From: a virus
Virus record (IMG/VR): IMGVR_UViG_3300025133_000040
Span: 47,832-111,831 of that record
Length of the DNA: 64,000 nt
Direction: 5' to 3' (one strand)
The translations under genes and the position numbers were made by a program. A model generated the notes under the pieces. The model ran no database searches and had not been told where the DNA came from. It saw only the letters and a program-made list of their open reading frames with translations. Positions 36,966 to 50,606 of the stretch are shown here, one piece after another. Positions within the stretch are counted from its first letter, which is position 1, and each line of letters starts with the position of its first letter.

Positions 36966-36991
36966 TAAAAAGGCGAATCGTCTGACATTCG
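36966..36991 (-). terminator. Terminator of the RNase P RNA gene
   Basis: CGAAT ... ATTCG stem followed by CC and five T. The loop holds the 3' strand of P2, so folding of P2 and of the terminator should compete. Confidence 0.65.
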
Positions 36992-37229
36992 TCTAGGCTT
37001 TTCAGCCTTCCCCACCATTACGTGAATGTGGCAATTACTCACCACCCAAAGATGCACTAACCCGACTATCACTAGGTCGCTCACGCCCTAAGTCTGTTTA
37101 GCTTGCACGCATTGTGGTACAAGCGGCCTAAGCCTCCCACAAGGAGCGATTGTGCCCTGAACTTGTCCTCTAGGTGCTACGCACCCAGCGTCAGACTATA
37201 TAGCCAGGGTTCTGTAAATTCGTCTCATG
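36966..37229 (-). ncRNA. Circularly permuted RNase P RNA (rnpB-like)
   Basis: Key conserved parts of bacterial RNase P RNA are present but rotated. The transcript begins with the usual 3' element ACAGAACCCTGGCTATA (CR-V), then P2 5' GTCTGAC (37196-37190), a P3 hairpin GGTGC-GTA-GCACC, and CR-I GAGGACAAGTTCAGGGC. It ends with CCTAGACGAATG and P2 3' GTCAGAC (36986-36980). P4 forms between AAGTTCAGGG (37164-37155) and CCCTGGCT with the universal bulged U kept and an extra compensated A-T pair. P1 is replaced by a short link, and new ends lie in J2/4. It has its own promoter and terminator. It should cut 5' leaders from the many tRNAs, using host protein. Confidence 0.82.
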
Positions 37230-37234
37230 TCTAA

Positions 37235-37262
37235 AGTATACACTAGAACGGGCTGGAGTCAA
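37235..37262 (-). promoter_or_regulatory. Sigma70-type promoter of the RNase P RNA gene
   Basis: TTGACT (37262-37257), 16-bp spacer, TATACT (37240-37235). Confidence 0.88.
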
Positions 37263-37926: not shown

Positions 37927-38293
37927 AAAATAAAAAGGGTCAATGAGACTATAATCACCATGAGTAATCTTTTGTTGTCGTACTCACAACGTCCGTTGGA
38001 CGATTTACGCCTCCGAAGAGAACTCCTGCCAGGGAGTCGATTAACAACGTGTCCACCTACCAAGTAGGTAATCACTCGCGACTGCAATATTTAAGAGCCT
38101 GCGTTAGCTCTATCTAAACAACTACTCAACCGCATCCATTAACTCTGCCTTGCGAGCAGTTCAACTCCGCTAGGAGTTTAGTCGCTTTCCTCGATTAACT
38201 TGATTGACCTTGCGAGTCGCCCAAGTCAGTATTACCCCGAAGGGCTACCGAATTAAGTCGCTTTCGTTGTCTAGTGTGTCAGGACTTTTGCTT
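37927..38293 (-). ncRNA. Large structured non-coding RNA, part 1
   Basis: 367 bases without a gene between two tRNAs. It holds an H-type pseudoknot (TGAGTA 37961-37966 with TACTCA 37981-37986; GTTG 37974-37977 with CAAC 37987-37990) and many short helices: ACTCC-TAGC-GGAGT, CTGC-TCGCAA-GGCAG, CCTAC-TTG-GTAGG, CGTCC-AAC-GGACG. Ends in a weak terminator-like GACCC plus T-rich tract. Possibly the 3' half of an ornate large RNA with part 2. Confidence 0.5.
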
Positions 38294-38368
38294 TGGTTAA
38301 AAATACAGGAATCGAACCCATACAGATTGTTTGATACAACAATTGCCCTACCGTTAGGCTAATTTTCA
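38294..38368 (-). tRNA. tRNA-shaped gene with encoded CCA and odd anticodon loop
   Basis: AT-rich acceptor TGAAAAT/ATTTTTA followed by A and CCA; normal D arm and T loop TTCGATT. The anticodon arm is ATTGTT/AACAAT with a 6-nt loop GTATCA (or 5 bp and 8 nt), so the anticodon is unclear. Confidence 0.6.
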
Positions 38369-38772
38369 TTTGGCGAGAGACGTGCTGACACAGTTGCTCC
38401 ATATCCTTTTGGGATGCAGAATACAACACGCCTCTCTGTACAGAGTCTTGCGGACTCTTATACCGTAGTTCAAGAGAAGGTGTGCCCCCTCTCTCTCATA
38501 CTACCACATCCCACTTGTTTGCAGCTTGCAGAATGTAGTTACTGTTCCTTCCTCAGAAGTAAACTGTTAAATCCCTATCCCAGGCTATCACCTCTGGGAA
38601 GTAGTCGATAGTGTTACCCTCGTGCTACTTTCAGGCAGTCGTTCTTCCTATTGCCCATTACAGGACAACAAGGAAAGGTCAGCTTGAATGAATGGACTCT
38701 TACGAGCGACAGCTTGCCACGCTGCCTTTGGGGAGATTGCTCTCCTTACCCTAATGACTTCATACAGCCAAG
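38369..38772 (-). ncRNA. Large structured non-coding RNA, part 2
   Basis: 404 bases with no minus-strand gene. A 10-bp helix joins GAGAGGCGTG (38436-38427) with CACGTCTCTC (38384-38375). There is a GNRA hairpin GGAGA-GCAA-TCTCC (38745-38732), CAGC/GCTG, AAGTAG/CTACTT, CCCAG/CTGGG and AGAGTC/GACTCT hairpins. The size, complexity and tRNA neighbours resemble GOLLD/ROOL-type phage RNAs; I cannot match the consensus. Confidence 0.5.
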
Positions 38773-50251: not shown

Positions 50252-50254
50252 GAG

Positions 50255-50606
50255 TGGAGATGCGGGGAGTCGAACCCCGGTTCTGCATTGAAACCACATA
50301 AACATTCTACGTGCATAGTAACTACTTTTTAGGTCGAGTAACCAGACCGATACGTCTTTCCGTAAGTCAAACCGCTCTTAAGCGGCCAAAGCAGCATCAA
50401 AACTGGATGCACTGACTACGCTGACCTGCGCAGTTGAGGTTCCGTTAAAGCTACGGAAGGAACTCTTTTTGGAAGGCGAACCAACCAAAGCAACATCAAA
50501 GCTGTTGTTAGCATTTAAAATTGTAAACGATTTTTTACGTGGCCCTTCGTTCAACCACGGCACGCTACTTACACTTTATCCAACCAGTCGATACCATTTC
50601 ATCCCC
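50255..50606 (-). ncRNA. ssrA: tmRNA with 44-residue tag
   Basis: 352 nt. 5' end GGGGATGAAATGGTATCGAC and 3' end CGGGG-TTCGACT-CCCCG-CATCTCC-A form the tRNA-Ala-like domain with the G3-U70 pair; CCA is not encoded. Resume codon GCT (50512-50510) follows TTTTAAAT, a usual context. The tag begins ANNSFDVALVG, continues SPSKKSSFRSFNG, TSTAQVSVVSA and ends SSFDAALAA, stop TAA (50380-50378). Typical tags are about 8-35 residues. Only about 120 nt follow the stop, so some of PK2-PK4 may be missing or replaced by the long frame. Own promoter and terminator. Rescues stalled ribosomes. Confidence 0.93.

Follow-up and report, generated by a model that had tools for sequence, protein, structure and literature searches.

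A predicted circularly permuted class A RNase P RNA, almost without a specificity domain, in two phage genomes

To our knowledge, RNase P RNA is one of two near-universal ribozymes and is known in a single linear order. Engineered circularly permuted RNase P RNAs show that such layouts can work. Natural circular permutation is known for different RNAs: tmRNA, whose permuted form usually ends up as two pieces once processed, and the 5S rRNA of organelles, a case reportedly described by Valach et al. in 2014. Truncation can also work, as in the laboratory-made E. coli catalytic-domain construct (PMC5839562). The minimal RNase P RNA of Pyrobaculum (archaeal type T/P) keeps its catalytic domain and has a degenerate specificity domain (PMC5839562, PMC4919922), but it functions with archaeal proteins, follows the normal order and lacks P18.

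The window analyzed here is a stretch of 64,000 nucleotides, bases 47832-111831 of the 111,831-base IMG/VR virus record IMGVR_UViG_3300025133_000040. Its minus strand contains, with high probability, a class A RNase P RNA that is natural, phage-encoded and circularly permuted and has lost nearly all of its specificity domain; its enzymatic activity is inferred. Sequence and comparison together establish the identity, permutation, domain loss and conservation of this RNA. In common with bacterial class A RNAs (RF00010, rnpB; E. coli M1 RNA), it has P2-P7 and P15-P18 with the same connectivity on the circle, the P6-L17 pseudoknot, CR-I, CR-IV, CR-V, the bulged U, J5/15 and the GGU motif. The P2 pseudoknot with P4 is also present. 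In contrast to class A, it has a permuted order, has lost P1, has P19 opened into a terminal helix, retains 19 nt of the specificity domain, carries an extra hairpin before P18 and is encoded by a phage. Assignment to Pyrobaculum type T/P was rejected, since P18 and bacterial-type CR elements are present. The combination of permutation and specificity-domain loss, in a phage, appears to be new; full-text literature searches (with incomplete coverage and without bioRxiv) found neither a natural circularly permuted RNase P RNA nor a phage-encoded one. A natural form that is permuted, stripped and viral shows which connections RNase P needs.

Architecture of the permuted RNA

Read 5' to 3', the structured core (37223-36973, 251 nt) runs ACGAAUUUACAGAACCCUGGCUAUAUAGUCUGACG-P3-AGGACAAGUUCAGGGC...CUAGACGAAUGUCAGACGAUUCGC. 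The order of parts is CR-V/P4 3' strand, P2 5', P3, CR-I/P4 5', P5, P6 and P7, followed by P15-P17, P18, CR-IV and P2 3'. The motifs quoted in a preliminary description of this locus are all on the minus strand: ACAGAACCCUGGCUAUA, P2 5' GUCUGAC, P3 and GAGGACAAGUUCAGGGC, and, at the far end, CCUAGACGAAUG with P2 3' GUCAGAC. The same description gave the extent as 36966-37229, which we narrow to the core above. The features are as follows (R2 and R3 are rearranged covariance models and G001 is a second phage, all described below).

36973-37223, minus: permuted class A RNase P RNA, structured core of 251 nt (R2, R3, 63 conserved pairs)
37235-37262, minus: sigma-70-like promoter TTGACT-16-TATACT, predicted start ~37228 (consensus scan, 10/12)
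37218-37222, minus: new terminal helix, 5' strand CGAAU, putative opened P19 (covaries with ACUAAG/CUUAGU in G001)
37202-37215, minus: CR-V, ACAGAA plus P4 3' strand CCCUGGCU (sequence; R2/R3 alignments)
37197-37201, minus: AUAUA linker joining the old 3' and 5' ends, without P1 (sequence; identical in G001)
37190-37196, minus: P2 5' strand GUCUGAC, 7 bp with 36980-36986 (two compensatory changes in G001)
37170-37188, minus: P3 hairpin (comparison with G001; R2 alignment)
37155-37169, minus: J3/4 and P4 5' strand (CR-I), with bulged U and extra U-A pair (sequence; R2)
37152-37154, minus: P5 5' strand CAC, pairs with GUG 37106-37108 (one compensatory change; R3 alignment)
37145-37149, minus: P6 5' strand UCGCU, pairs with AGCGA 37077-37081 in L17 (one compensatory change; topology test)
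37137-37141, minus: P7 5' strand UGUGG, pairs with CCACA 37113-37117 (one compensatory change)
37118-37136, minus: specificity domain remnant, 19 nt (everything between the P7 strands)
37103-37105, minus: J5/15 CAA (matches bacterial GCAAG; identical in G001)
37056-37102, minus: P15, P16 and P17 with L17 and the GGGU region (see single elements)
37099-37102 and 37056-37059, minus: P15, GCUA/UAGU (one compensatory change)
37091-37094 and 37064-37067, minus: P16, GACU/AGUC (one compensatory change)
37060-37063, minus: GGGU, putative CCA-binding motif (identical in G001)
37013-37054, minus: extra stem CAUC/GGUG around a 7-bp GUAA-loop hairpin, between P15 and P18 (three compensatory changes)
36995-37008, minus: P18 with GAAA tetraloop (4/5 pairs changed on both sides)
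36980-36994, minus: CR-IV AGACGAAUG and P2 3' strand GUCAGAC (R3 aligns CUAGACGAAUG; P2 covariation)
36974-36978, minus: terminal helix 3' strand AUUCG, then CCUUUUUAUUU (covariation with G001)

P4 comprises 8 bp; its bulged U and its extra pair (U-A), for which the base inserted in one strand is balanced by one in the other, are as in the preliminary description. The old ends are joined through AUAUA and the P1 closing helix is absent, so that P1 is lost rather than merely joined, a point that had not been recognized. The new ends fall in J2/4, the site of the canonical P19. The terminal helix is best read, by inference, as an opened P19, because P19 extends P2 stacking in known RNAs (PMC12974513) and the new ends open that site.

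Also beyond the preliminary description, the specificity domain is almost absent: only the 19 nt between the P7 strands remain, and CR-II, CR-III and P8-P14 were not found in the window RNA. With both P1 and the specificity domain missing, the RNA is filed as a class A variant and not as a standard member. The catalytic core can be placed by comparison (P2-P7, P15-P18, J5/15 and the GGU loop), including elements that had not been assigned before (P5, P6, P7, P15, P16 and the GGU loop). The partner strand of P6 lies in L17, an arrangement shared with E. coli (PMC5839562), and GGGU precedes the P15 3' strand in both phages. An earlier placing of the P5 3' strand and P15 (near 37053) and a reading of AAACAGAC as CR-II were both dropped after the covariation listing. 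The sequence AGACGAAU is present twice on the minus strand, at the RNA 5' end (37218-37225) and in CR-IV (36987-36994); an alternative, local hairpin of the 3' AUUCG strand, ahead of the U-run, is thus also possible.

Rearranged models and a second phage

Rfam RF00010 gives no RNase P match in native order, which is expected of a permuted gene, and canonical-order searches did not match the window RNA. For the rearranged models, canonical bacterial rnpB sequences were used (13 from genomes of several phyla, more from one phylum), with CR-V moved before P2 and P1 left out. R2 has 62 positions and was made from 22 rearranged bacterial pieces, without phage sequence. Across 240 kb of two phage genomes, its best two matches are the two phage RNAs (26.9 bits in the window, 25.5 in G001; next match, 11.8), and 21 chance loci selected by motif pattern score at most 16.7. 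R3 has 186 positions, from 14 rearranged bacterial sequences with the specificity domain left out. Its single match in the same 240 kb is the window RNA at full length (25.4 bits, E 1.9e-6), with P5 3'-J5/15 aligned as GUGCAAG and CR-IV as CUAGACGAAUG. Without filters, R3 matched only the 5' half of the G001 RNA. E-values of both models are rough, given a short calibration. A sequence profile of rnpB matched CR-IV and CR-V only when the 3' end of the RNA was joined to its 5' end (9.0 bits; maximum of 3.8 bits among 9514 control circles). The preliminary description had anticipated a covariance match only after rotation, and a positive result was obtained in an equivalent form, in which the rotation was applied to the models and not to the sequence.

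The second phage, G001 (IMGVR_UViG_3300037882_001257, 126 kb), has ~80 genes in common with the window phage, mostly at 30-67% protein identity and for the majority of proteins around 45-60%, and carries the same permuted RNA as a 460-nt gene (L002 3331-2872, minus strand). The two RNAs were aligned over alignable parts only, unalignable inserts having been cut from both beforehand. In this alignment, 63 pairs in 12 helices are 100% standard in both phages, and 15 are compensatory, with both sides changed. None of 500 shuffles paired as well, and slid partners were only 25-39% paired. P2 changes from GUCUGAC/GUCAGAC in the window to GACUAAC/GUUAGUC in G001 (7 bp, two compensatory changes), and the terminal helix from CGAAU/AUUCG to ACUAAG/CUUAGU. 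P18, which has a GAAA loop and is followed by CR-IV, is compensated in 4/5 pairs. P5, P6, P7, P15 and P16 have one compensatory change each; they were picked among helices shared by the two sequences, so their 100% pairing is partly by construction. P4 (8 bp in both phages) never varies and is therefore left untested by covariation. When the class A order P5-P6-P7-P7'-P5'-P15-P16-P6'-P16'-P15' was imposed, the real sequences scored 26.5, compared with at most 21.0 in 400 column shuffles. The P4 bulged U with its flanks, J5/15 CAA, GGGU and the AUAUA join are identical in both phages.

The evidence base is two sequences only, both metagenome contigs. The rearrangement is judged to be real and kept by selection, because a distant relative carries the same RNA. 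The RNase P identity first proposed for this locus is borne out by the presence of all quoted motifs, the R2 and R3 matches and the covariation with G001. The proposed circular permutation, with the old ends joined and new ends in J2/4, finds support in the rearranged-model matches and the compensatory changes.

A feature of G001 that had not been described is a 103-amino acid open reading frame (ORF) inside its RNase P RNA gene (L002:2935-3246, minus strand), with its stop codon in the GUAA tetraloop. The ORF is probably coding, because towards its C-terminus it is similar to phage proteins (40% identity, E 2e-4, for Providencia phage Kokobel2). RNA blocks conserved with the window fall within the ORF, and a simple replacement of the specificity domain by it was dropped because these blocks align inside it.

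Possible function and rival explanations

The RNA is surrounded by a tRNA operon (directly upstream), a GOLLD RNA and a tmRNA. There are ~29 tRNA genes in the window phage and ~34 in G001, and no RnpA gene was found in either phage record. The preliminary description assigned the RNA its own promoter and terminator. A promoter sequence is present (TTGACT-16-TATACT at 37262-37235, 10/12 consensus), although chance alone would give 0.7 matches of this kind in the region. The terminator could not be upheld: the 3' end has a U-run (CCUUUUUAUUU), and no consensus terminator was called there. The sole terminator-like stem found, with a U-run, is upstream (37298-37279, minus strand), at the end of the tRNA operon and before the promoter.

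Sequence and comparison show that the gene was opened at P19/J2/4, that its former ends fused with loss of P1, and that the product folds into the standard catalytic core. We infer the rest: transcription would start at a promoter of the gene's own, immediately past the phage tRNA operon, and the RNA would bind host RnpA protein and cleave the 5' leaders of phage tRNA precursors, with phage tmRNA and GOLLD RNA perhaps as further substrates. Such an enzyme might be used if the host's RNase P is in short supply or a poor match. Recognition of tRNA would be expected to depend mainly on the acceptor stem and 3' end, not the elbow, because the specificity domain is almost absent. Maturation of phage tRNAs with host RnpA, as the preliminary description had suggested, is plausible; this function is inferred, with no data on expression, cleavage or binding. 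The E. coli catalytic domain cleaves on its own, with ~500-fold lower kobs/K (PMC5839562), so such an RNA can be active. Against an active enzyme stand the missing elbow-recognition part, the ORF inside the G001 gene, the match of R3 to only the 5' half of that RNA and the apparent lack of the RNA in related phages. On balance, we consider it reasonably likely that this natural permuted, catalytic-domain-only RNase P RNA is the phage's private subunit, re-equipping the host enzyme for the phage's own tRNAs and, in one lineage, also hosting a protein-coding gene. The RNA would then be a natural test of the tRNA recognition achievable by a catalytic domain with RnpA.

The most serious rival is a decoy: an RNA of permuted RNase P ancestry that is no longer an enzyme and weakens host RNase P by binding host RnpA or pre-tRNAs. 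RnpA binds the catalytic domain of RNase P RNA, the very part retained after the specificity domain was almost lost, and neither phage encodes RnpA. Nevertheless, a decoy would not need the catalytic features that are identical in the two phages (P4 bulged U and flanks, J5/15 CAA, GGGU), and a phage with ~29 tRNA genes needs RNase P; we regard this explanation as unlikely. More doubtful still is an active RNA that acts on other substrates (tmRNA, GOLLD, phage mRNAs) or on itself rather than mainly on tRNAs. Lost elbow recognition could widen the substrate range, and tmRNA and GOLLD genes are in the same region, but the tRNA operon is directly upstream and GGGU, whose counterpart in known RNase P pairs with tRNA 3' ends, has been kept.

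Two further explanations are already contradicted by the comparisons above. The lack of any Rfam match in native order would fit a different phage noncoding RNA that resembles RNase P by chance or convergence, but the R2 and R3 matches, the profile match seen only across the join and the full core topology with covariation make this very improbable. That both records are metagenome contigs leaves room for an assembly artifact, in which an ordinary RNase P RNA gene was misjoined. However, two highly diverged phages share the permutation and the AUAUA join, their helices are compensated and the new terminal helix covaries, and the chance of a misjoin seems negligible. Phage tRNA maturation by a private RNase P RNA remains our preferred reading.

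Distribution and neighboring RNAs

Among the records examined, only the window phage and G001 have the permuted RNA. Pattern scans of IMG/VR yielded the G001 locus as the sole true relative, and a pattern scan of 84,980 genomes returned 13 matches, about the number expected by chance, with no relative among them. Eight IMG/VR candidates (L001, L003-L007, L160, L161) were rejected as chance matches in coding DNA, and two from the genome scan (L102, L107) as ordinary rnpB 3' ends. Similarity searches of INPHARED and PLSDB found no homologue. An R1 search over 80 phage records related by a tail protein recovered G001 only, and RF00010 detected canonical RNase P RNA in 0 of 50 related phage records. 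Because the patterns were exact and the records fragmentary, these negatives carry limited weight; a search with R2 across genomes missed even G001, and its negative result was discarded. The RNA would seem to be dispensable, since related phages appear without it. Order-dependent models such as those of Rfam can miss RNase P RNAs, and therefore phages and reduced genomes that have been called as lacking one may need another look.

Two other RNase P-like loci were noted. A record named Microcystis phage MaAM05 (MW495066.1) includes a stretch resembling ordinary rnpB, with fabI, engB and mtgA nearby, and may be bacterial DNA. A weak second RF00010 match (33.6 bits; G070:C22:272535-272760, minus strand) is just downstream of the rnpB of that genome.

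The GOLLD RNA of the window (37943-38436, minus strand, 171 bits) adjoins the tRNA operon and includes a tRNA-like call at 38294-38368. With the exception of this doubtful call, none of the phage tRNAs encodes CCA. Nearly all tRNAs of both phages end with the discriminator, C and then T, and such a uniform N-C-U 3' end is unusual. The window tmRNA (50252-50606, minus strand) scores 119 bits with Rfam and was not called by ARAGORN; that of G001 is at 111986-112333, with the tag AGDLWRDIS.
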